This document shows, in pieces, positions 2 to 49,199 of a DNA stretch of 64,000 bases. The stretch spans positions 26,822 to 90,821 of the IMG/VR virus record IMGVR_UViG_3300019776_000365; one strand, given 5' to 3'. The notes below the pieces were generated by a model. It did not search any database. It was not told where the DNA came from and saw nothing but the letters and a program-made list of their open reading frames with translations. The stretch is from a virus. Numbering within the stretch: the first letter of the stretch is position 1; the number at the start of each line of letters is the position of its first letter. The position numbers and the translations under genes are program-made.

Positions 2-3000
2 GCACCCGTTATTAATGCTTTAGCTGTTTTAGGCTTTGATGAAGAGACTATATGTTATTTCATTAATCAGCCTATAATAGAATATTACACAGAATTTATG
101 GCATCTAAGGATTCATCATTAAATGATTTCGATCCAGATGCCGGCGCTAATGTTTTTGATAAAATAGAGAATTTTATAATAGGCAAGTACAATATAACTG
201 ATATTGACAACTCATTAAATAATTCTGGAGTTGATGTTTTAAAAGAACAAATTGCAACTAAAGAACAAAATAGATCTAAAAGTTTTTGGGAAAAACAACT
301 TGGATTGCTTAGAAAATTTGAAGAAATTAACGAAGTTGGCAATTCAGTTCAAGCATTGATGCAAACCGTAAATGCAGAGTCTAAAGGACTCGGTAAGACA
401 TTGTTTGGCTCATTATCAAGAGAAGATAAAATTAATGATATAGATGATGTAACTGAGAGGTATAACTCTGGTAAGTCAGCTACAGGTATTATTAATGCAG
501 GTAGAATTCTATATGAATTTAATGAAGATGGTGAGTATACAACTAATGAGTTTAATGGAAAAATCACAGACTCATTAAATGGTTTTGTAGCAGAGTATGG
601 CACTAAAATATTAAATAATATTGGTTCTCAAATATTCCCATATAGAAAGAAGCCAATTAATGATATATTTGATTATCTAAGAGAGCTATTAGGCAAGAAA
701 GGTTCTTCAATATCTCAAGATGAAGATTTTATGGGTAAAACTTTTACAGCAATGAAGTCGTATTTATTCTCTAATACTAATCTATATGGAGATAAAGTTG
801 ATTTAAAGGCTGAAAGAAAACGTTTATTTCTTGGTGAATATAAACTATTAGATCCAAATAATCCTAACGGAGAAGCTATATTAGTAAACCCATCACTTGC
901 TGACACCATAGAAGCATTAAAAAATGAAAACATAGGTAAGTCTAACATGCTACTCAGGATGCTTACAGTGGACAAAAGAATGACCTCTAGCGCTGTTAAA
1001 CTGGTTAAATATAATGCAGCATCTGGTCAAAATGCAGATGAGTCTGAAATACACCAAGCATTTATAGCTTTATTTAGAGAAAATGTGCCATTAGAGTATA
1101 AAATTGGTGATAAAATTAATAAGATAAACTCAAGAGATCTTGCTTTAGATTTAATTAAATACACTTATTTATCTGGTGGCTCTCAAGAGGCTATACAATT
1201 CACTAGATATATACCTATAGATGTGCTTGAATATATTGGATTTGGCGATAGAATCAATACTATAGCAAAAAATATTAGCTTATCACATTTTGGTACAAGT
1301 GTAGAAAAAAATTCAATTAAAAATTCCAACTTTGTTGAACAGTATTTACAACATAACCCAAGTAAAGTGCCAGTCAAAATTAAAGGTAAACTAAACAAAG
1401 GCAATAAAGATTTAAAAAATGTTCAAATAAAAGATGGTATTGTTTGGAAATTCACTCCAAACTTTACAGTAGATACAACTAAAGGTTCCGCTGATTATAT
1501 GTTAGGTCAAAAATATGTTGTTGGCATGACCGACAATATGAAATATCTAATATATAAATTTAATGGTACTGAGTTTGTAAATATACCTACACTTGGAACA
1601 TTTGGTATGAGTGAATATGACTTTAACCTACCATCAGGAGAAGTTGCTCAATCTGTAATTACATCAAGAAATATAACTCCTTTAAATGAAAACAAACCTA
1701 GTGATATTAGCAATAAATTATCACAACAGGTTAAGCAAGAAGAGTTAGATGTAACAAAAGAATATGACTTATATAAGAATTCATTAGATAATGAAAATCA
1801 AATTAAAGGTATATTAGAGTTAATATCAAAAAATGGTAATGAAGCCAACAGTCGCATTGCTAAAAAGCTATTAGAAAACACTCACCTTTTAAATTCTATT
1901 AGTGATTATAATTTATCTTATGGAGATGTTGGTAGGTCATCTGGTAGGCACAACATGTATGATAAAACTATAACCATATCTAATATTAAAAACAAGTTTA
2001 AATCAAAAGATAAACTTGAAAATACTTTAGTTCATGAAATAGTTCATGCATATACTGTTAGAACGCTTAGATTAATATTTGATGATAAATTCAAATCAGA
2101 AAATATAGAAGAGTTTGAAAATCTAGATCCTAAAATTATTGAATCCGCTCGTAGAATTAGATCTATAAGAAGAGCTTTAGTTTATAAGGCTAAGTCATCT
2201 TCTAAAGAACTTAGCGATAAACTTAAAGACATAGAAGCTTGGTGGGCCAACAACAAAACAACTAAACTTACAGAAGAACATAAATTTGCTTATTCATTGA
2301 GTGATGATTTTGAGTTTGTCTCAATGGCGCTTACAGATAGTAGTTTTAGGTCAGAGATTGATAAACTAGATTCTATAAGTGATAATAATAGCACTCTAAA
2401 GAAGCTATGAGACGCTTTGCTTAAATTCTTAGGTCTTGATAGTGTATCTAATATAGATAAAACATTTATTGAAAACAATATATTTAATTTTATAGATACT
2501 ATTGAAACATCTATTAAAGAACCATCAAAAAAGATTGACAAGAAAGAATTTAAAGATAATGAAGAGTATAGAAACTTATCCAATATACTTGATGAAATAG
2601 AGTCTAAAAAAGAAGTTGAGATAATTAAAGAGCCAGTTAAATATTACGAAGGAAATATAACTCCAGATAAAAATACTATATTTGTTTTTGGTAGTAATCC
2701 AGAAGGTCGTCATGGTGCTGGTGCCGCTAAAATAGCGAGAACACAATTTGGCGCTATTTATGGTCAAGGTGAAGGATTGCAGGGTAATGCATATGCTCTA
2801 CCAACAAAAGATCTCAGGATTACCGAAAATAAAGGATTTAAATATATATCATTTGATCAAATCGTAGAAAACATTAAAAAACTATATGAAGTTGCCAAAC
2901 AAAATCCAGATAAACAATTCAAAATAGCTTATAGAAATACTACGACAACATCTTTAAATGGATATACTGGATTGGAAATGATTGAGATGTTTAAAACTGC

Positions 3001-4870
3001 CGGTGATATTCCATCAAATATTGTATTTAGTAAAGAGTGGATTGAAACTGGCGAATTTAATAAAAAAGAAGAACCAAAAGTTGAAGAGCAAACAAAACAA
3101 GAAGATCCAAAAAGTAAATCATTTTCATATAAAGGTGTATCAATAGACACTGAATTTCAATTAGGTGAAGACCAAGACAAATCACTTAAAGAGTTAATAG
3201 ATTTTATTGATGGCTCATCTGACACAGCAATGACACTACAAGGTGCTGCTGGTACTGGCAAAACAGCTACAATTGGTTATCTTCAGAAATACTTAAACAA
3301 AAAAGGTTATACTCCTTTTGTTTATATGGCTCCAACACATGCAGCAACTGTAGAATTAGCATTTGCTACTGTTAAAACTGGAAATACATCTATGCCATTT
3401 ACTGTAGCTAAGGCTGTAAGATATGATAGTCTAAATAAAAAGAATGTATTTACCATGAGAATAAATGAAATTTTATCTTATGGTGGTGTTATAGTAGTCG
3501 ATGAATCTTCAATGCTTGATGATAATGACGTAAATGCTATAATAGAAGCATCTGAAAATATTGGTGTTAAGGTTGTTTTTATGGGTGATGAGAAGCAGAT
3601 ACCAAAGGTTAGCAAAGAAGGTGGTGATGTAATGTCATTATTTGGTGAAGATTTTGGGACTATTAAAAAAAGAGTATCATCTGCTTTTACGAAACTAAAG
3701 CAAACAAATCTTAGACAAGTTTTTAGACAATCAGACAATGGATTGCTTGCACTTTTATCTAAAATGAGATCTCAAAATAATTTTAAATTATTTAAAGTGA
3801 ATAACAGAAAGTCTGTAAAATTTGTTGATAGAAGTGAGTATAATAAATTATTAAGGGAAGATATATTAAACGATCCTGAAAATACTATTGTTATATCATA
3901 CACAAACGGTTCTGTTCAAGAAGTTAACAAAAATGTTAGATTAATTAGAGGTATGAGTGGTAGTCCAAAAGTGTTTGATGTTATCATTGGATATATAGGG
4001 TATGCCAATAAAAAGATAGATGCTGGGAATATAGCTAATAGTGTTCAATATACTATTGATACAATACAAAGAGATGGCTCAGAACTTAGAATTATAGCAA
4101 ATTCTGATAAACTAAAACAACTAGTTGATTTAGGGATATCTGGTATATCTAAAGTAGCATTTACTAGATATTTGCAGTTATCACAAGGTGATAGTCTTTC
4201 TATTGATGATATGACAAAAGAAGATTATGACAACAACAATGAAACATTATCTAATATATTTAGATCGGTGCATGAATTAAATATGGCTTATGACAGAAAA
4301 CAGATTAAATATTACACATATCTAAATGCATTAGCAGAAAAAACTGCTATTTTAGCTGAATTGTCTGTTGGTGATAGTTATATTTATAATCCAAAAATCG
4401 ATAAAATGGAGCGTTATGATCAAAAGATTCATAAAAACATCAAATCATCTGGTAGTGGGTCTTTGTTGTTTGAGAAGGGCGTTGATTATGGTCATGCTAT
4501 AACAATACATAAATCTCAGGGATCTACTATAAACAATGTTTATTTTGACGCAGATTCAATAAATTCAGCTAGAGATACAAAAATACTTGATGAAAAAGAC
4601 AATCAAGTCACAACTGAAAAAATGGCTTTAGCTTATGTAGCTATGAGTAGAAGTAAGAATAAACTTGTTGTAAATAAAGGTAGTCAAGCTTTTGAACAGA
4701 TAGATGAAAATGAAGTTGAATCATTGCCTGAATTTAACGACTCTAGTTTTTTCGAATTAACAGAGGATGAAAGCAAAACTTTAATTAAAAAGCATGGCGA
4801 CAAAGCTATAGAGATGTATAATAACTTAAATGACGAACAAAAAGAAATAATACTTAAATGTTTAAGATAA
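2..4870 (+). CDS. Giant virion cargo protein: zinc metallopeptidase, macro-like and superfamily 1 helicase domains (5' truncated)
   Basis: The frame is open from the window edge to TAA at 4870, reading one in-frame UGA (2408-2410) as Trp; under the standard code it would split in two. Visible domains in order: a long N-terminal region without recognised motifs; a zincin-like motif HEIVH at nt 2033-2047; a macro/A1pp-like domain from about nt 2675 with FVFGSN and GRHGAGAA; an ATPase with Walker A GAAGTGKT near nt 3242, Walker B VIVVDESSM near 3487, and a C-terminal motif VI-like AMSRSKNKL near 4645, as in RecD/UvrD-type helicases. Crassvirales carry several such multi-domain giants, some known to be packaged in the virion and injected. 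The cargo role is inferred from family knowledge. The stop at 4870 is 1 nt from the next start, so the two giants are cotranslated. Confidence 0.8.
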
Positions 4871-4871
4871 T

Positions 4872-7800
4872 ATGGCTAAATGTATAATACATAATGATAA
4901 ATTTAAAGACCTGGTTGAAAAATCAGGTCTTAACTCTATGCAATTAGAGGCTGAGATGAATCTTTGGATGACTAGAAATAATACAGATATTTGGCCAACT
5001 CTTAGTCAATTGGGTATTGAATTCAAAGATATAACAAAAGAACATAAAGGCATTATAAGAAATAGACTTTCAGATATAATCCCAAACATATCTGAAGATA
5101 AATTTAAAGAGATATATGAAAATTATACTTCATTAATGGGTAGAGGCGGTAGGCCTGGGAAGGAATTGCCTTTTAATAAATTCAAAGCGTTTGTTTCAAA
5201 TGCAAATGTGTATAACTATAAAGATACTTTTATTTTTGGACACTATGATACAATAAATAATGTTTTTATAACTACCATAAGTAGCAGCCCAAGTAGTAAA
5301 GAACTTTTAGCTGAAGCTATACCAAATATAGCTAAGAATTTTGATGTTATAGGATTTGCGCCAAAGGATGTTGTTGGCAAATATAAAAGAAGTGGATACG
5401 TTGTTAGCGATGCATTTTTTAATTATAATTTTAGAGGCGAAGAAATGAATAAATTTCTATATGCATCAAATCCTAATATAACAAAACGTATATATGGTAA
5501 AAATATAGAAGATTTATCTCAGAAGGAAATATTGGATTTAGATAATAGATCGTTGGGGTATATTTCATTTAGAAATCTTCTTGACGAATTAGTTACAAAT
5601 AAAGATAATTATAACTATAATATTGTAAACAATAACCTAAAAGAGCTTAGGGTTCCAGCTCATCAAAGAGAGAGGTTTTTAAAAGAAATAAAAAATGGTA
5701 GATATGAATATACAGAATACTCACTAATACCAGCAATCAAAAAGCTATACGATTTTAAAAAGGTTGATATTGATGAGAAAGACGAAAATGCTCTAAATCA
5801 AATAGTTCCAGATACCGAAAATCAATTAAACAAACTGTTAGTCAATTATCTTTCTAACTTTGGAATAAAAACAGAATACATTGAAGATATACAAAATAAA
5901 CTTGGTATAGATTCACTAGGAACTGTTGATATTCTTAACAAAATTGCATATGTAGATAAAGATAATACTGAAGATTTGCCGGAAATTGCAGGTAAATTTA
6001 TAGCATATATGCTTCAACACAACCCATTGATAACATCCACATATGAACAGCTTAGAAAAATAGGTAAATATAAAAATAGTAATAAGGATGAATTGTTAGA
6101 TATAATAGGCGAACTTATAGCTAAAGAGTTGCACAACAAAACGGATGTTAATTTACCTAAATCTTTAGCAGAAAAAATACAATCTATAATTGCATATTTT
6201 TTTGATTTACTAACAAAGGCCAGAATAAATAAAATCAACAAAGATATTGGAGTTATTGTTGATTCAATCTTATCAAATAATAAATCATTAATAACCGCAA
6301 GTAAATACAAGCCAGGATCTCCTGGTAAACAGGTTTTGCAAGTGTCACTAAAAGAGGCATTAAGATCTGATAGTTTTGCTAACTCTATAGTTAACAAGAT
6401 GGCTGATAAAGGATTTATTCTAACTGGAAGTGTTGTTCTTTCAGAGCAGGGCTCTATATTTAGACCAGAAGAAAATCAAGTTCATGATTTAGATTGGGTA
6501 AATCCTCATAATGAAGAAAAAACTAATGAGATATTAGATGAAATATATCCAAATAGAAAACATATAAGAAATATATATAACGAAGGTGAAGAGTCGTATA
6601 CTCATACATTTTTAATAAGTCCAGAAGGAACTAAAATAACAAACCTAAAACTTGAGGGGTCAAATTCCATAGTTAGATCATACAATATAGTAAATGATAA
6701 TAATGAAATAGTTGGCTCTTATTCCAATGAAAATGGTGTTGAAAGATCTAATGGTATTGAAGGGAAGGCTATAGATCTATTTATGAATGAACGTAACAAA
6801 TTAACTCCAACTCAAACAATATTAGAATCTGGAATAGTTTTAAACATGTCAAATTGAAGAGATATTTTTAAAGCTAAACTAAGATATGCAAGATTAAAAG
6901 ATATCTGAGACTATAATAGATTTATACCAAATGAAAATATAACAATAAAAGAAATTGCAAAATCAGAAATTAAAGGAGAAACTTATAATTCCACAGAAGA
7001 TGCCCCAGATATGACAGAGCCAGATGATATTACCGAAATGGGAACTTTATTTGACATAGAAATACCTGATGAATATAAGCTGTCAGATTTCAACTTAACA
7101 GAAGAAGATGAAGATACTATAAGTCAAAGCTCATACGCTAATCTTACAAGGATGCTTATATATAGACGCAATGATATATATAATGACATGCAAAATACTA
7201 GTACAGCCATTAGAAATGCTAAAGATGAATCTGAAAGAACCAAACTTAGAGAAAAGTACGCTGAGTTAAAAAGCAAAATGGACTCTATCGTTGAACGTAT
7301 AGATAAAGCCAATCAGCTTAAAAACATATCTCAATTAGTTACATTTGGTGAAGAGGATTTATCTGAGGCTATAAAGTTGTTAGAAGATCCTAATTTAACA
7401 GAGCATGGCCTTAGATATGCTAAAAGAATTGTTGATTTTTGGATTAAAGTAGCTGATTTTAATGTAGAGCGTGAGGGCCATGTTTTATTTGGTAAGAGCT
7501 ACGATAAAGTTATATCAGATAAAGAAAAAAATGAGTTTTTAGATTTGGCTAATAGAAAAGAAACTGGTGCTATAGCTTTGAGTCATATAATCAATGGGCT
7601 ATCTAGAGATTATATATCAAAAATGGTTAATAAACAATTAGATGGGACATTTAGTATAAAAGATATATATAAAGCTATAGAAGATATTAACTGGTGGAAA
7701 GCTAATGCATTCTCAATACAAGACTATTCTTCGCCATTATTAACGGCTATGTATAAAACTATGCGTCAAGCCGACATGGATGCTTCTAAAGAGGCTGAAG

Positions 7801-10568
7801 TGCTATCTAAACAGTTGAATGATCTACTTAGTAGGGTTAACAAAAAGCTAACATCAAAAGGAAGTGGTAGATATAGGATATTCTATCAAGAAGAGAATGG
7901 TAAGCTAAATGGTAATCTAGTAAGGATATATACAAAGAAATATCAAGATACAAAAGAAGAGTTACTTAAAAAAGCTCAAAATGCCACTGGTGACAATAAG
8001 GCTAGAGCTTGGGATGATTTTAAAAGATGGTCTAAAGCCAATGAAGATCTAATAGATATTAGATTGTTGTTCCCCACAGAAGAGTTAACTCAAGATCAAC
8101 AAATAGCAGCAGATAAACATAAAGCTCATATACTTAAAATGTTGGGTCAACGACAGTACGATAAAGTTATGAGTGAAATTTCTGAAGCTTTAATTGATTA
8201 TGATATATCAAGAAATCTAAAGAAGAATCAATTAGAATTAGATGATACTTTATCTGAAGATGATAAGTTTTTTAAACTAAAAGAGTGAGAGCATAAGAAA
8301 TCTCCATATATTGAGATGGAGAGACGCTTGGGTAGTTTAGAAGATGATGGTACATACAAGGATTCTAAAGTTATGTTAGGCCCTAATAGAACATTTGCAG
8401 ACAAAGGCGTTAGAGGTCTTAGAACTATTGCAAAAGAGTATTTGAGTGATGGTACAAAAACAGAATGGTATGATCCTAAATTTAAAGAAATATCTAAAGA
8501 TAAGGATTTGTTAGAGCTGTATAACTTCATATACGATACTATGGATTATATGAAGACATTATTACCAGAGCATCAGAGAAATCAAATATCAACTAATACA
8601 CTACCATTTATAGAAAAATCTATTGTTGATATGTTTTCTGAAAACTCCGCTATTGGCATGGCTAATATGTGGAGTGAGATACAGAACTCATTTATGATTA
8701 AAAACTTAGATGAACGCAAATATGATGAAATTGATGTAACAACAGGCAAGGCTATATCAAAGGTAAAAGTTACCACCTTTATGTCTGGAGATAAGAGATT
8801 AAATGATGCTATAAAAATAAAAGAAGCTGAGTTCATAGCTAAGACTGGTAAAAACCCATCAAAAGAAGATGCAGTAAAATTTAGAAAAGAAGCTTTAGAT
8901 GATTTAAATAAAGAAAGATCATTTGATTTGCCATCATTAATAAAGATGTATACAGGCTCGTTATTGGCCTATAAGCATAAATCTAACGTTATAGATATAA
9001 TAGAGATAGCTAGAGATGCCGTTGATGAAATAAGCGAAATATCGACATCTAATGCCGGTAGAGAGCAAATAGATCCATTGACTGGTAAGCCTAGAGTTCA
9101 AGCTGGACTAACACACCTCAAAGAGTCATTAGATTACGCCATGGATGCTTTTAAAGGGCAGCCAATACATACTAGAACGGCTGCATCACAAAATAAAAAA
9201 TACAACCATAAAGACAAAGTAGAATTAAATAAGTTATTATCTACTAAAGCTTTGTTGGATGAAAAATTTAATAAAGGTAAGATTAGCAAAGCAGAGCATG
9301 ATAAGCAAATATCTGTAATAGACAGTAAAATAAACTCATTGGGAGGATATGCTTCTTTTGAAAAAGCTGGTGAAAATGTATTGAAATACATTCAACTTAA
9401 AGGCATGGGATTTAATGCTATAGCAGGTGCTGTCAATCTAACTACAGGCTGGTTAGAGAACTGCATTAGATCTGCTGATGGTAGGTTCTTTGATTCATCT
9501 CAATTAGGAGCTTCATATAGAGATGTTATGTCTACTATATACGACCCTATGAGAAAAAATAGCACTACTAGAAAATTGGTAGGTATAGAAAAGTCCTTAA
9601 GGATATTAAATAATCCAGCTCATGAGTTGTATAAAACCGAGTCTAAGTTTGGAAAAGTAGCTTATATTATAACAGAAAAGACTGAGTTTGTGAACGTTAT
9701 GTCTATGTCTGGTGCTTATCTTAGAAATATTAAAGTTAAAGACGCTAAAGGCAATGATTCTAATCTATATGAAGCATTTAAAGAGGATGGGTCTATTAAA
9801 GATGGCTGGAAGTTAAGCAATACTAAAACTAATGATGAGTTTTTGTTTGATGTAAGCCAAGCTATACAAGCTTTAATTAAAAGATCTCATGGTAACTACA
9901 GAGATTCACTCAAGGGTAAAAAAACTATATTGGGTCAAATGGCCTTTCAGTTTAGGACTTGGATGCCAGAATTGTACAATTCAAGGTGAGGAGCAACTCA
10001 GTATGACTATATACTTAATAAAGAATTTAAGGGTAGATGGAAATCATATGGCACATTAACTGGTAGTGAGTTTAATGGAAATACATTTACAGCAGCAGAC
10101 AATACATTGTATACATTAGGTCAGCTATGTAGAAAGATATTATTTATGAGGACTTCATTTGATGGTAGGATGTCAGAAGTTGATGCTGCTAACATGAAAG
10201 CAAACCTTATGGAGCTTCATTTTGTACTTGGTACTATAGCTTTGATGTTAATGTTAAGAGCAGCCATTCCAGATGAAGATAGAAAGAAAAACTTTACATA
10301 TAATATGTTGATTAATCTTATTACAAGACAGCAGAATGATATATTAGTTTTCGCTAACCCTGGGACATTTGAGCAGATTAATAAAAATGTATTACCAGTA
10401 ACAAGTGTTATATCTGATACTAAAAACTTAATGACGGCTATTAAAAATGAATTTAGCGATGATGATAAACAGCATGGTAAATCATTTGTTAAGGCCGTTA
10501 AGATGGTCCCACTTGGAGGCCAGCTAGTTAGAATTGGTCAATATGGATCTAAAGAAATAGCTCAATAA
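4872..10568 (+). CDS. Giant virion cargo protein (1898 aa) with four in-frame UGA-Trp codons
   Basis: Continuous frame from ATG 4872 to TAA 10568 when UGA codons at 6855, 6906, 8286 and 9987 are read as Trp; all intervening segments are in the same frame and UGA is the only interruption. The N-terminus (FKDLVEKSGL ... AEMNLWM ... WP) resembles the start of large polyvalent phage proteins. Around residues 520-580 the string LTGSVVLS followed by HDLDWV looks like a nucleotidyltransferase fold (G-S then hDhDh); this is tentative. The rest is mostly helical and charged. It precedes the convergent terminator and is the last plus-strand gene of the arm. No RNA polymerase DFDGD-type motif is seen, so it is not assigned as a polymerase subunit. 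Confidence 0.8.
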
Positions 10569-22899: not shown

Positions 22900-24318
22900 T
22901 TAATACAGTATTAATGGCGTTTTAAATATTTGTTTTGAGTCTTCTATTAGATCAAAATATCCATAGTTATCATTAAATAGATTGTTGCATCTAGTAAAAT
23001 AAGTAGATCTTTCATTTATATAATCTAATAAATAAACAGATTCTTGCCCATTTGTTACAAGAATAATGTCTTCTAACGATGTTTTAACTCCTTGCTTATA
23101 CTCAACCTCTTCTGCATATTTTAAAATACTCATGCAAATAAACAACCAGTTAATAATTTTATATTTATTCAAAGTAGCATTATGCATTCTAAATTCAACA
23201 GTTTTACCGCCATTACCAAACAACAAATTGATAAAATTAATTGCATAATATCTGCGATTTATCTCCCATTTGCGATTTCTATCTGGATCTGATGGGTGAG
23301 GGTCATAAAATCCATTGAATTCAAAACCATCTTCTCCAGATAAATATTCATACAGCTTATCAAATTCTTCAAATTGAAGATCATCTGGCAATCTTTTGCA
23401 GTAATCCTTACCATGGCTTTTATATTCAGCGGTGTTAAAAATAGATCTTGGCATAATTGAAGATAAATCATCTTGAATGTCCACTAGAATATTATAAAGA
23501 TTCATAATTTTACACTTATCTAATGGGAATCCACCTAAATGCAAATGCACCGAGCATTCTTTGTCAATAAGACATTTATCATTAAGCTCGTCCAATTGGT
23601 TTAATAATAGATTTACACCATCTTTACCTTGCATTGGAATAGTTGTATACTCATGGCCATTAATAGAGCCATCCCTAAGTGGAATCAACCCTAATTGTTT
23701 GCATGTAAACTCTGGAATTAACCCACTAGATGTCTCAAACTCAAAGCCAAATGAATATTTATCTAGCAAATCAAACCAATTATTATAATCGAACTTAGCT
23801 TTTGTATATTTAGAATTGTTAATATCTTTAAATAAACTTATAATCTTATCAGAATTATACACCCTTTCAAAAGAATAATAATATTTATTATGGTAGGTTT
23901 TTCTTGATAAGTCATACCCAGAATACATTGCAGCTTTATAGTCAAAATACTCGCCCCTATTGCCAATATAAATCTTTGGAATAGAATCAAACACATTCAT
24001 ATTTATAACAGAAACATTTCCATTTCCATATGTTTGTATTTTAATATCAATTGATTTATCTTTCTCAAATCTACCAAATACATATTTATTATAGTCTTGT
24101 TTATATTCAACAATACCTATAGTTGTATTCTCTGTAGTCTTTAAATATCTTTGCAGTTCATTGTTGAAATAAATTTTTGGATTACCTTTTCTATACCACT
24201 TGCCATCAATATTAAAACAGTCAACATTCTTTTCAAAGAAATAATCGCCAATTTTAATACAGTCTTTTCTTAAAACCTCTTTACCTGATATTGTTGTTAC
24301 AAAATTTACTTGTGCCAT
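22900..24318 (-). CDS. Amidoligase (glutamine-synthetase-fold COOH-NH2 ligase)
   Basis: 472 aa. The central domain shows amidoligase features: FGFEFETSSG (metal-binding E-x-E), LIPLRDGSI with GHEYTT, CSVHLHLGG, then MPRSIFN, NRRYYAIN and TVEFRMHNAT (E-F-R). N-terminal ~180 residues contain tyrosine-rich beta segments. The family forms amide bonds using ATP. First of a cluster with two amidotransferases, a second ligase and an ATP-grasp protein. The family is recognised; substrates are unknown. Confidence 0.82.
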   Translation of the reverse strand: MAQVNFVTTISGKEVLRKDCIKIGDYFFEKNVDCFNIDGKWYRKGNPKIYFNNELQRYLKTTENTTIGIVEYKQDYNKYVFGRFEKDKSIDIKIQTYGNGNVSVINMNVFDSIPKIYIGNRGEYFDYKAAMYSGYDLSRKTYHNKYYYSFERVYNSDKIISLFKDINNSKYTKAKFDYNNWFDLLDKYSFGFEFETSSGLIPEFTCKQLGLIPLRDGSINGHEYTTIPMQGKDGVNLLLNQLDELNDKCLIDKECSVHLHLGGFPLDKCKIMNLYNILVDIQDDLSSIMPRSIFNTAEYKSHGKDYCKRLPDDLQFEEFDKLYEYLSGEDGFEFNGFYDPHPSDPDRNRKWEINRRYYAINFINLLFGNGGKTVEFRMHNATLNKYKIINWLFICMSILKYAEEVEYKQGVKTSLEDIILVTNGQESVYLLDYINERSTYFTRCNNLFNDNYGYFDLIEDSKQIFKTPLILY

Positions 24319-24341
24319 TTTATTATTTGTAATTTAATTAA

Positions 24342-25805
24342 TTATAGAAATCTTACTATCTCATCTGCTATCATTTCTTCTAGCATTTCATCGCTAATCA
24401 TACCCATTCTAATTCTAGAGTCAAGTAAAAGTGAATCTTTAGTTTGCTCATAAGATGGAATTCCAGCAGTTTTAAATTTATTAAACTCTGTAATTTCACC
24501 ATTACTGTTGCATTTATAAATCTCTTTGTCTAATGTGAAATATACCTGAAAAACACCACAGAATGGTAATATTGATTTAGTTGATGTATCAAAATGGTAC
24601 ATCTGATAGTCATTAGCACTGATTTCAAATGGTACTGGATGTACAGCAAATGGAGCTAAAAACACATCAATAAAATCATCGTCAGATTCTTGCTCTAATG
24701 CACTAATATATGCGTTTGCGCATAAATAGTCAAAATAGCTTTTAATCATAACTCCATCAATAAAGTAATAAGTAGATCCATAGGTTTCTGAATTAATTTC
24801 GTAACCACTATTGCTTAGCTTATACTCACCATTAGCTTTTTTATTATTAATGTAATAATACCCATCTGAAGATATTCCCATTTTTTTATTAACAAAAAGC
24901 TTTTGAGCTCGTATTTTATTTACAAATTCTTTCTCTGTTGGCTGGTTTGTACTGTGTTTGCTATTATAATACCCACCATAATCATAATCATCATAATCTT
25001 CATAAGAACCAAATGGCAGATATCTTTGACCAACAGTGCTTTTATAAGACAATTGTTTTGTTTGTTTTCTTTTAGATCTATCAATCTCTATTGTAGATTC
25101 AATATTACCGTTTTTAATTTTATAAAGAGTGTTACACTCCATGTCAACAATAGTATCATTGTCGTCCATTATGAATTCTAATGAGTTTTCCATTGATGAA
25201 AACCAAAATGAATTCTTATGATTAATAAAATATAACGGTCTTTCTTCATATAGTTTATCATCATTTTTATAAAACAATGACGCACCCTTGAAGATAAATA
25301 CTGTATTTAGATCTACACGACTATCCCAAAAAACAAAAGCACCAGCACCTTCATATTCTGATAATACCTTAAAGCCAGCTTTATAAACTATTTTACAAAA
25401 TATTTGAGAGTCAGTTTCGTGATTGCTATATGCAACATCATATGTATTTGCAAGTTCTTCATAGTTAATTAAAGTGCCATTATGAATCATAGCAAATACA
25501 GGCTTGTCGTTCTCATATATAACCACTGGTTGAGCTTGTTGTAGTCCTATAGCGCCTACTGATGCTTTTCTACAATGACCTAGAGCTATTGTTGGTTTAC
25601 CTATTTTTGCATCAATAAATAAACCATTTTCTACAAAATCTTTGAATTTTTTGTTTTTATCAGCACCATAAGCTACATCTGTTTTTAATTTACCGTGATG
25701 AAACACCCCACATGAATCACCACCTCTAGCGTCATTGTACAACCCTAATACTTTGAATTTATTTTTATCGTAATTTGTTCCAATATGTCCAAAAATTCCA
25801 CACAT
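24342..25805 (-). CDS. Class II glutamine amidotransferase-like protein
   Basis: 487 aa. Ntn-type N-terminus MCGIFGHIG with catalytic Cys2, then GDSCGVFHHGK, LGHCRKASVG, MIHNGTL-NYEEL and SNHETDSQIF, all standard GATase II strands. Would release ammonia from glutamine or hydrolyse gamma-glutamyl amides. The C-terminal half lacks asparagine synthetase or GlmS domains and contains tyrosine repeats (DDYDYGGYY). Neighbours are amidoligases, indicating a shared pathway. Confidence 0.85.
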   Translation of the reverse strand: MCGIFGHIGTNYDKNKFKVLGLYNDARGGDSCGVFHHGKLKTDVAYGADKNKKFKDFVENGLFIDAKIGKPTIALGHCRKASVGAIGLQQAQPVVIYENDKPVFAMIHNGTLINYEELANTYDVAYSNHETDSQIFCKIVYKAGFKVLSEYEGAGAFVFWDSRVDLNTVFIFKGASLFYKNDDKLYEERPLYFINHKNSFWFSSMENSLEFIMDDNDTIVDMECNTLYKIKNGNIESTIEIDRSKRKQTKQLSYKSTVGQRYLPFGSYEDYDDYDYGGYYNSKHSTNQPTEKEFVNKIRAQKLFVNKKMGISSDGYYYINNKKANGEYKLSNSGYEINSETYGSTYYFIDGVMIKSYFDYLCANAYISALEQESDDDFIDVFLAPFAVHPVPFEISANDYQMYHFDTSTKSILPFCGVFQVYFTLDKEIYKCNSNGEITEFNKFKTAGIPSYEQTKDSLLLDSRIRMGMISDEMLEEMIADEIVRFL

Positions 25806-25841
25806 AAGTTAATTGTTGTTAATTTATAATACTTAATAGTT

Positions 25842-25879
25842 TAAAAAAAAAGAAACGCCTAGTTTTTACGCTAGGCGTT
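25842..25879 (-). terminator. Intrinsic terminator upstream of the GATase II gene
   Basis: 9-bp inverted repeat (AACGCCTAG 25854-25862 and complement 25871-25879) followed on the minus strand by a long T-tract. It lies just after the ligase gene at 25887-26705 and may split the amidoligase cluster into two levels of expression. Confidence 0.8.
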
Positions 25880-25886
25880 ATTGCAA

Positions 25887-26705
25887 TTACATAATAGCTT
25901 CTTCTTGATAGATTTTGAATTTACTTATAATTGATTTAGCTAAATCCCTATCACCAGTATTAATACACTGAATAATATCGTTTTTAGCTTCATTAATGGC
26001 ATCGAGTCCAAACTCATTAAGATATTCAATAGCCATTAAAGTTCTGTCTAACGACCATTTAAACAGTTCTCTTGAGCTGATAAAATGACCAGAAAGAACT
26101 CTATATTCGCATCCGAATGGAGTTAGCCTGAAGCATCCAGCCTTACCATACAATCTACGTCTATTCATGTCACCATCAAGAAGCGCAGATGGCACCCCAA
26201 CGAATAAATCCATTGCTTTAATTAGGTTTAAAGATGCATTTGGGTTAAAATCATCATATCCAACATGGATGTGACATCCCGCCGATCTAAGGTTTGTATT
26301 TTGACCGTTCGGCTTTTCGTTTTTGTTTGCAGTCCATGCATTATAGTCTGGATCACAACCGAACATTTTAGATTCATCTGATTGTAGCTGGTCATCAGCA
26401 AACACACCAGAAGCCGCATATACTGGTTTTAAATTAAATGAGCTAAGATATTCAGTAATATACGATTTCATTAGCTCTACATTATCCGCCACAACTGATG
26501 GGCTACTATGTGGTGGTACATTAAACTCACCTAACACATTATCTACCTGAATTGCATATCCTTTGCCTAGTGATAATATGTGAGATGGTTCATCTTTAGT
26601 TCCTTGAATAATACCAATAGAACTAATTAGTTTGCCATTATTGTCTGAAATGAAAAACTCTGGATCTGTGCCTAATGTTACGTTTTTATATTGAAATGGT
26701 TTCAT
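25887..26705 (-). CDS. COOH-NH2 ligase, phage type (amidoligase family)
   Basis: 272 aa. LGTDPEFF (first metal site), AIQVDNVLGEFNVPP (D-x-x-x-E), RSAGCHIHVGYD, MNRRRLYGKAG, FRLTPFGCEYRVLSG are diagnostic of the phage COOH-NH2 ligase type. Predicted to ligate a carboxylate to an amine with ATP. Follows the short GG-ending ORF by 34 nt. Confidence 0.85.
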   Translation of the reverse strand: MKPFQYKNVTLGTDPEFFISDNNGKLISSIGIIQGTKDEPSHILSLGKGYAIQVDNVLGEFNVPPHSSPSVVADNVELMKSYITEYLSSFNLKPVYAASGVFADDQLQSDESKMFGCDPDYNAWTANKNEKPNGQNTNLRSAGCHIHVGYDDFNPNASLNLIKAMDLFVGVPSALLDGDMNRRRLYGKAGCFRLTPFGCEYRVLSGHFISSRELFKWSLDRTLMAIEYLNEFGLDAINEAKNDIIQCINTGDRDLAKSIISKFKIYQEEAIM

Positions 26706-26739
26706 TTTATTTTATTTTAATAATTAATAAATAACTGTT

Positions 26740-26925
26740 TTAAATTCTTCCACCAATAATATCGCCATTATTTCTTACAGCTATATATAATTGATCTGGA
26801 ATAAAAGCATTTTCCCATATTGGATCTATACCCATTGGTTGTCCTTGTAATTTAATATGTTTTCTAACATTTCCCAAGGCAGCCATCATTTTCTCTGCGT
26901 CAAATTTTACATCTTTTACTTCCAC
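26740..26925 (-). CDS. 61-aa peptide ending GGRI; candidate substrate in amidoligase cluster
   Basis: Small soluble protein starting MEVKDVKFDAEKMMAALG and ending DIIGGRI. It sits between the glutamine amidotransferase (10-nt overlap, coupled) and the COOH-NH2 ligase. A short, flexible product with a near-terminal GG embedded between peptide-modifying enzymes could be their substrate, but it could equally be a small accessory protein. No homology recognised. Confidence 0.55.
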   Translation of the reverse strand: MEVKDVKFDAEKMMAALGNVRKHIKLQGQPMGIDPIWENAFIPDQLYIAVRNNGDIIGGRI

Positions 26926-27602
26926 TTCTTTTTGTGGTTTAGCTGGCTTTTAGGCTGTTCTTTTTTAACCACATCATCAAGAAGTTCATTTACCAACATA
27001 TTGATAAACTTAACAGCTTCTGACTTTTTAGGCATATATTCAGGATGACCTTGAATACACAAGCAATTTGTTTTATTATAATAAACAATCTCTGGTTCTA
27101 CGAAATTATCCGGCAATTTTTTCTCGTTATCCCATCCATCTAAATATGTTTTAGATAGATTTTTTGAAGATTTTGCAATAATCGTATAGTCAGATGGATT
27201 CATATCAAATGGATACATCATTTGATGATGTGTACTAGTGATATTAAATTTAATATTAGCACCCAACACTTCAATTTCGTGGTCGCCATTGCAATGCCCA
27301 GTAGTGTGTTGCACTAATTTACCCCCAGATTTAGCTGTGCAAAATTGACTTCCACGGCATATTCCAACTATTATTTTCCCCAAATTAACAGCTTTTTCAA
27401 ATTCTTCAATTTCATGAAGATCTCTAGATGTGTTATAATACGTTTGTTTACCTTTTGGTTCGTCATATAATGATGGATGTACATCTTCTCCGCCTGTAAA
27501 TATAACTAAATCAGCCAACTCCATGTCGTCAACCAATTCAAATTTACATGTTAGAAAATTAGCATAATTTGTTGCACCACTTACTACATATACTTTTATC
27601 AT
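26916..27602 (-). CDS. Class I glutamine amidotransferase / gamma-glutamyl hydrolase-like (peptidase C26)
   Basis: 228 aa. Nucleophile elbow GICRGSQ, upstream FTGGEDVHPSLY, and QGHPEYM carrying the catalytic His-x-Glu. These match PuuD/C26-type enzymes that cleave gamma-glutamyl amides. A C-terminal Lys-rich tail follows. Start ATG overlaps the TGA stop of the upstream gene (ATGA). Confidence 0.88.
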   Translation of the reverse strand: MIKVYVVSGATNYANFLTCKFELVDDMELADLVIFTGGEDVHPSLYDEPKGKQTYYNTSRDLHEIEEFEKAVNLGKIIVGICRGSQFCTAKSGGKLVQHTTGHCNGDHEIEVLGANIKFNITSTHHQMMYPFDMNPSDYTIIAKSSKNLSKTYLDGWDNEKKLPDNFVEPEIVYYNKTNCLCIQGHPEYMPKKSEAVKFINMLVNELLDDVVKKEQPKSQLNHKKKWK

Positions 27603-28366
27603 AATCCAATAATTTTTTTATTATTTTTTAATAGTTTTAATGTCTTTTTATCTATTGTGTTTGTTTTCATTAAATCTACAAACTGGTCGCTTTCTTCATA
27701 GTCACGAAACACCTCAAGTTTACCTCTATAGCTATCATCTAGTTGAATAGATTTTCCCACTTTATTAACATCCTTGTCGTTTATATTCTTGATTATATCT
27801 ATATCAGTAATTGTTGATTTCGCTCCAAAAGAAGTGCATTCGTGAATACCTGAATTAAAACCTGGCATAATACTATTAGCCAATACGTATCTTTTAGATA
27901 AACTCAATCTTTTAAATCCACAGGTATTTTTCATAGCAAAAGCAAGTTTAACTGGGGCTAATACTTTCATCTCATATAGATTCCTAACCATAGTTAATGC
28001 TAGTTTAATCTTATAATGAGACATATTCTCAAAATCAGAATGTACCACTATGAATTTACCATGAACACCATCACTAGGAAAATTATCTTTAATTTCAAAT
28101 TTGAATTTAGTTAATTTAGTTACCCATTGTAGATATTCTTTTATTTCGTCCATAGTTAATGGGCAATAGTTGTTTAGATTTTCATCTAAATCACTTTCAT
28201 CTAATCTAACTAAAACCCCAAAATAACCATTATTGTTTTTTGGTTTAAAAGAATCACCCCCACTAAACGCTCTACTAAAACATGCTGAATTTACAAATAT
28301 TTTTTCTTCACCACCATTTACTTTGTAGTAATATGTAGTTGAATATGACAGAAATTTAATATTCAT
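27599..28366 (-). CDS. Hypothetical protein of the amidoligase cluster, 255 aa
   Basis: No fold recognised. Contains FSGGDSFKP, HGKFIVVHSDF and PGFNSGIHECTSFGAKS. The codon after Leu255 is TGA followed directly by TAA, and the TGA overlaps the ATG of the amidotransferase gene; as early genes elsewhere use TGA to stop, the end is placed at the TGA. Located between ATP-grasp and amidotransferase genes, 2 nt from the former. Confidence 0.65.
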   Translation of the reverse strand: MNIKFLSYSTTYYYKVNGGEEKIFVNSACFSRAFSGGDSFKPKNNNGYFGVLVRLDESDLDENLNNYCPLTMDEIKEYLQWVTKLTKFKFEIKDNFPSDGVHGKFIVVHSDFENMSHYKIKLALTMVRNLYEMKVLAPVKLAFAMKNTCGFKRLSLSKRYVLANSIMPGFNSGIHECTSFGAKSTITDIDIIKNINDKDVNKVGKSIQLDDSYRGKLEVFRDYEESDQFVDLMKTNTIDKKTLKLLKNNKKIIGL

Positions 28367-28368
28367 CT

Positions 28369-29145
28369 TTAAACCATTTTTTTAAGTTGTTCAATATATT
28401 TTTCTAATGTTATATCTCCAAGTGAGCTTGCGGAGTTTGTTTCTAAAATAATAAAGTAAGGTTCAAAATCATCTTTTTTGTTTTTTTCTGTTTGAACCTT
28501 AACATCACATGAGCAAATATCTAAACCTACCGCTTGCATAGCTTTAACGCATTCTTCAACTATTTTATCCCAGTTTTTAGGTTTTTCAAATAAATCATTG
28601 TCTTCAAGAATCCATACTGAATTCATGTCGTGTCTATGCCATCTAACTTCTGCATCATTTTTAAGCATTTTACGACATGTGTAAAAGCAACCATCTTTAG
28701 TTACGTGCAAACGATACTCTTTAGTGCAATTATAATATTTTTCAATAATATAATTTCCTACATTATGATTAGCTACAAATTCAGATAATTTTTCTTGATT
28801 TTCTATATAGAAAATACCATTACCTTTTGAGCTATTCTTATGTTTGATGATTGCTGGGAATATATCCCAATTAAATTCAGCATTATTGAAATATAATGGA
28901 GACCATTCTGCTGACTTTATTTTATGATAATCAAACCATCCCTTCATTATAATCTTATCACCACTTTTTGCACAAGCTTCTGCTGTGTTTATCTCACGAA
29001 TTGGCTTACCTAACTTAACTCCTTTTGGGAATATCTTTTCAGTTGGTGTTGTTGAGCCCATTCGTAATACAGTTCTAACATCGCAATCTATTAGATTCTT
29101 CAGTGGCTTTGCTGAGTAATTTCTACTTCTAATTTGTAATTTCAT
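28369..29145 (-). CDS. ATP-grasp ligase-like protein
   Basis: Start placed at ATG 29145 (MKLQIRSRNY): the open frame reaches TTG 29184, but that part lies inside a terminator hairpin. 258 aa. ATP-grasp signs: FPAIIKHKNSSKGNGIFYI (ATP-binding Lys and Gly-rich loop), NYIIEKYYNCTKEYRLHV, FYTCRKM, CSCDVKVQ and FIILETNSASSL (metal-binding E-x-N). Similar to phage RimK/YheC-type amino acid ligases. Acts with the amidoligases by context. Confidence 0.82.
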   Translation of the reverse strand: MKLQIRSRNYSAKPLKNLIDCDVRTVLRMGSTTPTEKIFPKGVKLGKPIREINTAEACAKSGDKIIMKGWFDYHKIKSAEWSPLYFNNAEFNWDIFPAIIKHKNSSKGNGIFYIENQEKLSEFVANHNVGNYIIEKYYNCTKEYRLHVTKDGCFYTCRKMLKNDAEVRWHRHDMNSVWILEDNDLFEKPKNWDKIVEECVKAMQAVGLDICSCDVKVQTEKNKKDDFEPYFIILETNSASSLGDITLEKYIEQLKKMV

Positions 29146-29149
29146 TTTA

Positions 29150-29182
29150 TCATAAAAATAAAGGGCTATATTTCTATAGCCC
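29150..29182 (-). terminator. Intrinsic terminator after the 72-aa gene
   Basis: Perfect 8-bp stem GGGCTATA/TATAGCCC (29163-29170, 29175-29182) with a TTTATTTTTAT tract on the minus strand. Supports the downstream ATG at 29145 for the ATP-grasp gene. Confidence 0.75.
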
Positions 29183-29193
29183 AATTAATAATT

Positions 29194-29414: not shown

Positions 29415-30422
29415 TTATTTTATTAAATTAAAAATTGTTTCTTTGAATATCTTTTCACCATGATTTCTATAAAGATCAAATGAATCTTTTGATAGTAATT
29501 TAGTTGGTATTTCTATTTGAGGTAACTTAAACTCATTTGCTATTTTAGCACCATAAATTCTACCGTGATTTTCATCTTTATCAAAATCATTGTCATATAA
29601 TACAAAAATGTTTTTAAATCTACTTTTTAGTTCATCTACTACTTGTTTTTTAGGAAATCCACTTTCTGACTGTAATGATGTGCATGGTATCCCAGCATGT
29701 TTCCATATAGTTAATGCGTCTTTTCTTGATTTGGTTATAATCAACACATCACCAGTAGATGGTAGCTGCTGCCATAAGTCCCATACGCCATCCTTGTGAG
29801 ATGTAAGCCATTTAAAACACTTGCTGTATGGTTGATATGTCTTTATAGTTTGAATATTATCCTTAGCTTCTAAATAAGCATACGCCAATCTATCCGCTGG
29901 TATAATTGATTCTTTTAAATCACCAAATCTATCTATTCTTTTATAGAATATATGAGTTATTGGATATACATTGCCAAATCTAAGAAAATCCTCATCTAAA
30001 CCACCTTGCATCCAAAACTCATTGTCATAGCTTCTGAATTTTCTAATTTTAACATTAAGTTCTACGTTTGAACTATATACTTTGTGTTGTGATTTTTGCT
30101 TTTTGATTTTATCTGGTTTTTCATCTAATGATTCTATGATATCTTTATGAATTTTCTCAACACACGATTGAAATGGAAGCTTCCATGTTTTAATAAAAAT
30201 ATCAATTAATCCGCCATACTCGTCTGTGCTAAAATCATGAAATATTATTCTATTAGATGAATTGTAGTATAGCCCAAAGGAAGGACTTTTATCCTCCCTA
30301 AATGGGCTATTGATTACAACAGGTATTCTATCTATATCAAAGTAAAAAGACAATATATCAAATTCTGTTTTGTAGTCAAATATATCACTTAATGATATTG
30401 TTTTACTTCCTTTAGATATCAT
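29415..30422 (-). CDS. DNA primase (DnaG-type TOPRIM)
   Basis: 335 aa. N-terminal domain (VINSPFREDKSPSFGLYYN ... FHDFSTDEYGGLIDIF) is the CHC2-like primase fold without the zinc-ligand cysteines. TOPRIM core: VLIITKSRKDALTIW, SLQSESGFP, IFVLYDNDFDKDENHGR with the acidic triad. Compact size matches primases of crAss-like phages. Makes RNA primers for replication; lies next to SSB. Confidence 0.88.
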   Translation of the reverse strand: MISKGSKTISLSDIFDYKTEFDILSFYFDIDRIPVVINSPFREDKSPSFGLYYNSSNRIIFHDFSTDEYGGLIDIFIKTWKLPFQSCVEKIHKDIIESLDEKPDKIKKQKSQHKVYSSNVELNVKIRKFRSYDNEFWMQGGLDEDFLRFGNVYPITHIFYKRIDRFGDLKESIIPADRLAYAYLEAKDNIQTIKTYQPYSKCFKWLTSHKDGVWDLWQQLPSTGDVLIITKSRKDALTIWKHAGIPCTSLQSESGFPKKQVVDELKSRFKNIFVLYDNDFDKDENHGRIYGAKIANEFKLPQIEIPTKLLSKDSFDLYRNHGEKIFKETIFNLIK

Positions 30423-36408: not shown

Positions 36409-36900
36409 TCATTTCACAAATTGTTTTAGTTTTTCAACATATTTCTTATCACTTGCATATCTCAATCTGAGTCTTTCATAATATTCTTCATTAGTAAGAT
36501 TCTTATAATGACTCATTTGAAGTAATGCATAATCAATTAACGATTCTCTCCAGTTAGCATAATAGGCATAACCATTTAATACTTGATTAGATGTTGTAGC
36601 TCTTTGACCACAACATTTCATTCCAAACATATTATGATTTGTTTTGAATAGATTGCTTCTTAAGCTATCCGTCTCATGTAACACTTGGCTATATACAATT
36701 TCAGGATGTTCAATCTCTAATTTCAAAATTTCATTATAAATTGAATCATATAAAGATTGTTGTATTACGGTTTGTTGTTTAATTTGTTTTGGTTGTTGTT
36801 TTTCTGTTTTTGTTGTCCAATCGTATTCAACAATAAATGGTACCGAAAAACACCACATTATAAAAATAATCATTAACCAATTCTTTTTAATCCAATTCAT
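36409..36900 (-). CDS. Glucosaminidase-type muramidase (GH73-like) with N-terminal membrane anchor
   Basis: Start placed at MNWIKKNWLM (36900); the longer frame to 36942 runs into a terminator hairpin. 163 aa: one membrane helix (LMIIFIMWCFSVPFIV), spacer, then GH73 core: IVYSQVLHETDSLRSNLFKTN (catalytic Glu), NMFGMKC, YYANWRESLIDYALLQ. Cleaves the N-acetylglucosaminyl link in peptidoglycan. In the early arm, unlike the lysis genes at 59-61 kb; it may act in wall remodelling or superinfection effects. Confidence 0.82.
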   Translation of the reverse strand: MNWIKKNWLMIIFIMWCFSVPFIVEYDWTTKTEKQQPKQIKQQTVIQQSLYDSIYNEILKLEIEHPEIVYSQVLHETDSLRSNLFKTNHNMFGMKCCGQRATTSNQVLNGYAYYANWRESLIDYALLQMSHYKNLTNEEYYERLRLRYASDKKYVEKLKQFVK

Positions 36901-36924
36901 AAATAAATAATTTAATTTAAAATA

Positions 36925-36954
36925 AATAAGTGTGTAAATCAATACACACTTATT
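36925..36954 (-). terminator. Terminator-like hairpin
   Basis: 12-bp stem AATAAGTGTGTA/TACACACTTATT followed by TTTAAATT on the minus strand, between the 75-aa gene and the muramidase gene. Confidence 0.65.
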
Positions 36955-44830: not shown

Positions 44831-44901
44831 AGGAGTATCGTTTAACGGTAAGACATCAGACTTCAACTCTGATTTTGTGGGTTCGAAACCTGCTGCTCCT
44901 G
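44831..44901 (+). tRNA. Suppressor tRNA, anticodon UCA (reads UGA as Trp)
   Basis: Acceptor AGGAGTA/TGCTCCT, anticodon stem TCAGA/TCTGA with loop CTTCAAC giving anticodon TCA at 44863-44865, T-arm GTGGG-TTCGAAA-CCTGC, discriminator G as in Trp tRNAs. D-arm GTTTAACGGTAAGAC is Trp/Gln-like. Explains in-frame UGAs in the plus-strand genes; Trp charging is inferred from the residues needed at conserved sites. Confidence 0.92.
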
Positions 44902-44907
44902 CCGATA

Positions 44908-48659: not shown

Positions 48660-49199
48660 ATGAGATTATTTGAATATTCAAATTATAAATTAAATATAGC
48701 ACCAGAGGTATATACAGTAAAAGCATTTAAGGATCTTGTTAAACGAGATAGAACTGTAGAAAAAACACAAGCAGAACAAGCGTTTTCTTTCATTTATTTC
48801 GTATATGACCCAAGGAGTGACTTGCAGTATATAACTGATGAAGATGAGCGTATATCAAGAGCAATAGAGCTTTTAGGTATAAATGACAAGTTTAAGGTAG
48901 ATGAAGTTATATCAAAAGCTATAGAGGTGTATAAGAGTCTTACAAAGACAACATCTTCTATGCTACTTGATGACATTAAAATGAGTGTTGACAAGATTAG
49001 GGAATACCTTAGAGATGCCTCTGTTAACGATGACACCTTTGATAGATACACTAGGGCTGTAGAACGATTAATACCACTTACAGAGAAGGTTACTAATGCA
49101 GAGAAAGTTGTAGTTAAAGAAGTAGAAGAACTGTCTAAGATGCGTGGTGATAAGCAACAAACCTTGTTAGACGGAGGTTTTAGTAACTTTATGAAATAA
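48660..49199 (+). CDS. Conserved crAss-like protein upstream of TerL (possible small terminase)
   Basis: Start moved to ATG 48660 from TTG 48648. MRLFEYSNYKLN, helical throughout; ends overlapping TerL by 1 nt (TAATG). Position suggests a packaging role such as small terminase, but no HTH is evident. Confidence 0.65.
   Translation: MRLFEYSNYKLNIAPEVYTVKAFKDLVKRDRTVEKTQAEQAFSFIYFVYDPRSDLQYITDEDERISRAIELLGINDKFKVDEVISKAIEVYKSLTKTTSSMLLDDIKMSVDKIREYLRDASVNDDTFDRYTRAVERLIPLTEKVTNAEKVVVKEVEELSKMRGDKQQTLLDGGFSNFMK

Follow-up and report, generated by a model that had tools for sequence, protein, structure and literature searches.

A gene cluster at positions 22900–29145 of a 64,000-nucleotide (nt) stretch of viral DNA is, judged by its sequence, a crAss-like member of a multi-ligase cassette already named in the phage literature. 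This stretch, hereafter the window, is part of IMG/VR virus record IMGVR_UViG_3300019776_000365, which spans 90,821 bases. The cluster is confirmed as a member of the known cassette, with sequence-level signs of function, and carries one newly recognised component, an orphan protein that we call UNK. It was described from RIO-1-like podoviruses as a ‘peptidoglycan modification cassette’ of seven genes, with phiEco32, LUZ24, PaP3, tf, PA11 and CW02 listed as carriers (PMC5498523). Iyer et al. and Hardies et al. (2013) are credited with it in PMC5498523 and PMC11945000. A literature search returned no earlier report of it in crAss-like phages, which is not proof of absence. New here are its patchy presence in crAss-like phages, the UNK family, membrane helices on one of its amidotransferases and a possible link to the restriction resistance of E. 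coli Gordonclarkvirinae, set against cuttable DNA in two other cassette phages.

Gene content and conservation of the cassette

Seven open reading frames (ORFs), all on the minus strand, and two terminator-like hairpins make up the locus; sizes of proteins are given in amino acids (aa).

22900–24318, minus strand: AML, amidoligase (PF12224, glutamate-cysteine-ligase-like), with an N-terminal region of ~190 aa of unknown function
24342–25805, minus strand: GT2, class II (Ntn) glutamine amidotransferase (GATase), catalytic Cys2 (MCGIFG)
25854–25879, minus strand: terminator-like hairpin, 9 bp stem and T-run, in the 81-nt gap between CNL and GT2
25887–26705, minus strand: CNL, phiEco32-type COOH-NH2 ligase (PF14395)
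26740–26925, minus strand: 61-aa ORF with a GTG start, overlapping GT1 by 10 nt; it may or may not be a gene
26916–27602, minus strand: GT1, class I GATase-fold/Peptidase_C26 gamma-glutamyl hydrolase, C82-H186-E188 motif
27599–28366, minus strand: UNK, orphan of 255 aa, uncharacterised cassette-linked family
28369–29145, minus strand: ATG, RimK/cyanophycin-synthetase-like ATP-grasp ligase
29163–29182, minus strand: terminator-like hairpin, 8 bp stem and T-run, in the 48-nt gap upstream of ATG

Four of the proteins scored above the curated Pfam cut-offs: AML with Amidoligase_2 (PF12224, 1.2e-10), GT2 with GATase_6 (PF13522, 5e-13), CNL with COOH-NH2_lig (PF14395, 6e-9) and GT1 with Peptidase_C26 (PF07722, 6e-17). 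ATG fell under the Pfam cut-offs and matched PHROG 2599, ‘ribosomal protein S6 glutaminyl transferase’, at 1.3e-25; its family profile retrieves solved ATP-grasp enzymes, and Pfam does not place it in the R2K clade (R2K_2, 14.4 bits against a cut-off of 26.2). The ATG start was set at 29145 and not at the TTG at 29184, because relatives begin at the equivalent of MKLQIR. GT1 resembles the solved ‘probable glutamine amidotransferases’ 7d4r, 7d50 and 7d53, which we take to be SpuA, a gamma-glutamyl-polyamine hydrolase, and more weakly gamma-glutamyl-CDP-amidate hydrolase. The motifs GFEFE, HLHLGG and EFR are all kept in AML, as are the invariant residues D14, E16, H145, H147, R182, E200 and R202 in CNL. 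At the level of sequence motifs, catalytic residues are retained in the cassette enzymes. On this footing the locus is confirmed as a complete and apparently intact set of three peptide-bond-making enzymes with their glutamine-handling partners. None of the six cassette proteins matched the PADLOC models of known anti-phage defence systems.

An earlier note on this DNA had described seven consecutive genes here as one early cluster. All seven ORFs were recovered at its coordinates, and Pfam and PHROG support the amidoligase, the two amidotransferases, the COOH-NH2 ligase and the ATP-grasp protein that it named. The 61-aa peptide that it counted as a member is present as an ORF but has no relative in any locus searched, and is not a conserved component of the cassette. 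The note mentioned that phage amidoligases with such partners are known from comparative genomics, but missed the name that the cassette already bears. Loss of active-site residues and lack of conservation in relatives were its stated grounds for doubt; the motifs are intact, and the genes keep together wherever the cassette exists.

CNL relatives occur in 312 of 50,697 phage records. A CNL profile scan of IMG/VR gave 80 loci and a scan for the crAss-type ATP-grasp protein gave 25, partly on the same contigs; the loci are cited below by L numbers. Hidden Markov model mapping placed ATG, AML and GT2 in the CNL loci not cut by a contig end. CNL, AML, GT2 and ATG stand together in 67 non-redundant loci, a count conditional on the choice of loci, since these were selected by CNL or ATG. 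The joint presence of the four core enzymes in so many loci indicates linkage beyond chance. AML adjoins GT2 in 65 of these 67 core-complete loci, as expected for a synthetase–glutaminase pair. GT1, gamma-glutamyl cyclotransferase (GGCT) or both are found in 61 of the 67 (19 with both, 31 with GT1 only, 11 with GGCT only), and mutual exclusion of the two is a trend only (Fisher p = 0.09, 67 loci).

Several loci depart from this plan in detail. A second GT2-like gene, starting MCI, MCL or MCV, directly follows AML in L016, L020, L023, L026, L030, L038, L024, L037, L050, L052 and L059. GT1 is interrupted by ~1 kb at or next to the catalytic Cys codon (GICRG) in L012 (8068–9947), L015 (8360–9983) and L034 (8406–9995), and also in L036 and L053; Rfam group I intron matches in L012 and L034 lie below the gathering score (E 8e-5 and 4e-8). 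The AML of L080 (12493–14936) is interrupted by an insert encoding a protein judged by eye to be LAGLIDADG-like. Nicotinate/nicotinamide phosphoribosyltransferase and PRPP synthetase genes of NAD salvage lie beside the cassette in Lbo-JY46 and LAh_9 (L002, 1464–5673; L011, 15009–16798).

The portal protein of the source phage shares 63% identity with its cr108_1 counterpart and is also close to the portal proteins of cr128_1, cr111_1 and Bacteroides phage DAC15, which points to a Steigviridae/Asinivirinae-like phage. This protein matches 141 phage records, against just two crAss-like phages for AML, cr108_1 and Cellulophaga phage phi14:2. Relatives of AML over most of its length are found in these two and in Leptolyngbya phage Lbo-JY46, each within the same gene set. 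The co-occurrence that the earlier note proposed to survey in Crassvirales is seen in cr108_1 and phi14:2, but most crAss-like phages lack the cassette, which makes it accessory in that order. The cassette is also nearly absent from bacterial chromosomes. CNL matched only 12 contigs among 84,980 genomes; seven of the 12 hold the full core. Genes for phage DNA polymerase, primase, helicase or lysis proteins lie on the larger CNL contigs tested, and the examined contigs are phage-like. In two even samples of ~60 records each, every bacterial host that is named is Gram-negative. A profile search of the window’s own record with PF14395 missed even the CNL present there, and negatives from that search are therefore uninformative for divergent families.

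Whatever its internal gene order, the cassette has a primase, helicase or DNA polymerase beside it in at least 62 of 82 loci. Its neighbours in the window are a primase (29415–30422), Sak4 and a helicase. The cassette genes need no UGA readthrough, unlike the late genes, and are probably expressed early from the minus strand, as the earlier note had supposed; PSA-HP1 expresses its cassette genes immediately after infection (PMC7082346). The genes are tightly packed, with intergenic gaps of −10 to +81 nt. The two terminator-like hairpins make a single uninterrupted transcript uncertain, and attenuation or separate transcripts are possible. Matches in a promoter scan were no more frequent than in shuffles.

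Elsewhere in the window, late plus-strand genes fuse into long ORFs if TGA is read as an amino acid, which early minus-strand genes do not require; the long ORFs hold one to six in-frame TGAs each:

98–4870, plus strand: long late ORF with in-frame TGA
4872–10568, plus strand: long late ORF with in-frame TGA
49199–51487, plus strand: long late ORF with in-frame TGA
51599–53980, plus strand: long late ORF with in-frame TGA
54527–57397, plus strand: long late ORF with in-frame TGA

At 44831–44903 there is a tRNA whose anticodon is TCA, and the late genes likely read through UGA, as known for some crAss-like phages. An endolysin-like gene (PHROG 21890) is found at 36409–36942 on the minus strand, the same strand as the early replication genes.

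UNK, an orphan protein of the cassette

A sequence-only search with UNK gave no match in phages or viral contigs. An iterated search over the cassette loci recovered a fast-evolving UNK family in which C29 and R128 are invariant and F30 and E132 nearly so. On its own, the C[FHWY] motif says little about membership, as it occurs in 21% of background ORFs. Of 21 non-redundant UNK copies, 18 stand directly in front of GT1; L044 and L104 have an additional copy joined behind GT1 as a GT1–UNK fusion. This coupling suggests that UNK assists the release step of GT1.

Structure prediction for UNK, which the earlier note had recommended, gave an AlphaFold2 model with a confident core of residues 7–170. 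Foldseek comparison with BFVD matched this model to proteins of cr108_1 and ctelJ1 (E < 1e-4) and next to a protein of Aeromonas phage 4_4572 (prob. 0.99). By length and organism, the latter corresponds to a 284-aa gene 97.9% identical to LAh_9 gp052, a cassette neighbour. A second, independent model was made for the protein that precedes CNL in another locus group (pTM 0.81). Its matches were proteins of CVT22 (442 aa, the size of gp67), CW02, GAP52 (two proteins), RIO-1, LAh_6, LAh_8 and 4_4572, all cassette phages, and A0A516LHE9. The 4_4572 protein and A0A516LHE9 are common to both searches. The two structure searches converge on cassette phages, and UNK is therefore a cassette-wide family missed by sequence searches. 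It is a real and previously unrecognised family that accompanies the cassette in many unrelated phages. The literature found on the cassette does not recognise it as a part.

A fold search of UNK against the PDB gave no match at E ≤ 0.001, and weak KH-like matches were not trusted. Profile–profile scores between UNK and the podovirus candidates were not significant; the two are joined by structure searches only.

A probable gamma-glutamyl pathway and its possible acceptor

The enzymes are most readily explained as an ATP- and glutamine-dependent system of amide ligation with gamma-glutamyl release, a class of chemistry that is very likely. CNL and ATG, as ATP-dependent carboxylate–amine ligases, would act early to form a gamma-glutamyl-type (iso)peptide bond on an acceptor. 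AML, supplied with ammonia by its neighbour GT2, would amidate or extend the product. GT1, or GGCT in other phages, would then remove a gamma-glutamyl activating or protecting group with the help of UNK. The acceptor would most likely be a membrane-linked envelope precursor, namely the peptide stem of peptidoglycan, and the wall of the infected cell would be altered, for example against superinfecting phages or to suit the phage’s own lysis. We infer the order of these steps, the role of UNK, the acceptor and the benefit from gene content, intact motifs, linkage, GT1/UNK coupling and the membrane helix on some GT2s, all of which were observed. Placing and removing a gamma-glutamyl group is a probable logic, whereas an envelope precursor as acceptor is possible rather than probable. 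The mechanism as a whole, a glutamine-fed, amidated gamma-glutamyl-type peptide on an envelope precursor, is a tentative proposal somewhat short of an even chance. The earlier note had suggested synthesis and trimming of a peptide-like conjugate. Ligation with gamma-glutamyl hydrolysis is still the best account of the enzymes, but ‘trimming’ is better understood as taking a gamma-glutamyl group off, since GT1 and GGCT often substitute for each other, weak as that trend is. The targets it offered (host protein, envelope, phage DNA) are narrowed here but not settled.

The envelope is suggested by GT2. In 16 GT2s from crAss-like and related loci, including phi14:2, an N-terminal hydrophobic helix of ~20 residues is followed by Lys/Arg and ends within a few residues of the catalytic Cys. 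No Met precedes this Cys in the helix-bearing proteins, so translation must start upstream. A comparable helix was sought in ATG, GT1, GGCT and UNK, and none was found. The helix would place the amidation step at the membrane and favours a membrane-linked substrate in part of the GT2 family. The Gram-negative hosts, the early placement and expression of the genes and their near-absence from bacterial chromosomes also speak for the proposal. In the cassette literature found, a change to host peptidoglycan is a hypothesis only, as is superinfection exclusion in RIO-1-like podoviruses (PMC5498523). For phage U17, which has the same cassette, wall weakening or new endolysin target sites were suggested (PMC11945000), and the phiEco32 idea is cited in PMC10580990.

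Several points weigh against this proposal. The window’s own GT2 has no membrane helix; it starts MCGIFG, with in-frame stops upstream, and in the other proteins a maturation of GT2 that exposes the Cys would cleave the helix away. Six of the 67 loci carry neither GT1 nor GGCT; the second GT2-like copy, present in five of these six, might replace them. The Gram-negative bias could reflect phage lineage instead of wall chemistry, and the literature on the cassette gives no product, substrate or phenotype for any member.

The replication-gene neighbours also fit a DNA-related role, in which an amino-acid or peptide group would be ligated to a nucleobase or nucleotide precursor as protection from restriction. 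E. coli Gordonclarkvirinae carry the cassette, and the BASEL paper reports them to be restriction-resistant with no known modification pathway; its main text does not draw this connection and never names an amidoligase. However, DNA of the cassette phage tf is cut by RsaI, HpaI, EcoRV, SmaI and HaeIII, and 11 of 16 enzymes cut that of U17, also a cassette phage. Gordonclarkvirinae have, besides, a dCTP deaminase and a nucleotidyltransferase, which could explain their resistance. The annotation of LUZ24 includes no base transferase or hydroxymethylase, the window’s record yielded no thymidylate synthase, and the GT2 membrane helices do not fit. We consider such a modification unlikely. Its more specific form, an unrecognised anti-restriction pathway that places a glutamyl- or peptide-amide on phage DNA or nucleotides and in which UNK, with its conserved Cys, Arg and Glu and no PDB fold match, would provide the specificity for nucleobase or nucleotide, is distinctly improbable; if true, it would explain the resistance of Gordonclarkvirinae.

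A free gamma-glutamyl or amidated peptide metabolite, made or recycled in solution, is rather unlikely. Candidates are a polyamine conjugate, an anti-defence molecule or an osmolyte such as N-acetylglutaminylglutamine amide. The nearest matches of GT1 are gamma-glutamyl-amine hydrolases, GT2 weakly matches a model of N-acetylglutaminylglutamine amidotransferase, and NAD salvage genes adjoin the cassette in the two phages named above. Yet these model matches lie far under the curated cut-offs, and the oxidase, dehydrogenase, acetyltransferase and transporter of known pathways were not seen in the cluster by Pfam/PHROG scan. The PHROG label and RimK-family similarity of ATG, with the immediate expression in PSA-HP1 (PMC7082346), would suit protein tagging, in which a host protein, for example one of the ribosome or a subunit of RNA polymerase, would receive glutamate, glutamine or short isopeptides from ATG and the two amidoligases, so that the host is redirected. 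Three ligases, two amidotransferases and gamma-glutamyl removal exceed the needs of a single tag, the crAss-like form has no conserved small tag protein, and the membrane helix on GT2 is hard to accommodate; we regard tagging as quite unlikely.

No conserved small acceptor protein, such as a LysW/Pup-like carrier or tag, was found in the crAss-like form. A conserved carrier peptide was rejected: the 61-aa ORF has no relatives, and a 72-aa ORF upstream is present in five loci only. Similar ~73-aa proteins, a candidate regulator or acceptor, lie between GT2 and ATG in LUZ24, ES17 and LAh_9 and not in crAss-like loci (L007, 11047–11268; L009, 12626–12859; L011, 13294–13515).

The cassette is a six- to seven-part biosynthetic pathway that is almost confined to phages and for which the literature gives no product. 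Sequenced lytic phages that carry it number in the hundreds, with E. coli, Pseudomonas and Vibrio as hosts, and some crAss-like phages carry it too. UNK as a common part, the GT1–UNK fusion and the membrane-tethered GT2s offer concrete starting points, and BASEL phages that have the cassette and propagate on derivatives of E. coli K-12 give experimental access at once.

Comparison with known systems

In the Puu/Spu gamma-glutamyl-polyamine pathways and in butirosin-type gamma-glutamyl protection, an ATP-dependent ligase adds a gamma-glutamyl group, which a C26 hydrolase or GGCT-fold enzyme removes. The ligases of the cassette differ in being GCS-like and ATP-grasp, and its cluster has no oxidase/dehydrogenase or carrier protein; Pfam and PHROG revealed no PuuA-type GS-fold ligase, oxidase or aldehyde dehydrogenase among the ten proteins in or beside it. 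MurT–GatD peptidoglycan amidation (PMC3267633) is alike in glutamine-dependent amidation with a class I GATase-fold protein, and its target is the wall, as proposed here. The cassette differs in having no Mur-ligase domain, and its ammonia more probably comes from the class II GT2.

The podovirus cassette (RIO-1-, phiEco32-, LUZ24- and PA11-like) shares two GCS-like amidoligases, an ATP-grasp ligase and GATases and/or GGCT, sits in an early/replication block and includes UNK-like proteins. The window likewise has two GCS-like amidoligases with an ATP-grasp ligase, and GATases with a gamma-glutamyl-releasing enzyme, encoded by adjacent genes in such a block with catalytic residues kept. It differs in its crAss-like order, ATG-UNK-GT1-CNL-GT2-AML, and GGCT was not found in it. 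Podoviruses have a separate gene of ~190–216 aa between CNL and AML, whereas the AML of the window has its N-terminal region of ~190 aa; an equivalence of the two was rejected for lack of a homology signal. The C-terminal ~270 aa of GT2, which have no known relatives, were likewise not homologous to the AML N-terminal region or to the podovirus gene. The gene order of the window recurs in two phages of Steigviridae, Asinivirinae. Cr108_1 has all six proteins, with UNK in two copies, and phi14:2 has GGCT in place of GT1/UNK and a membrane helix on its GT2.

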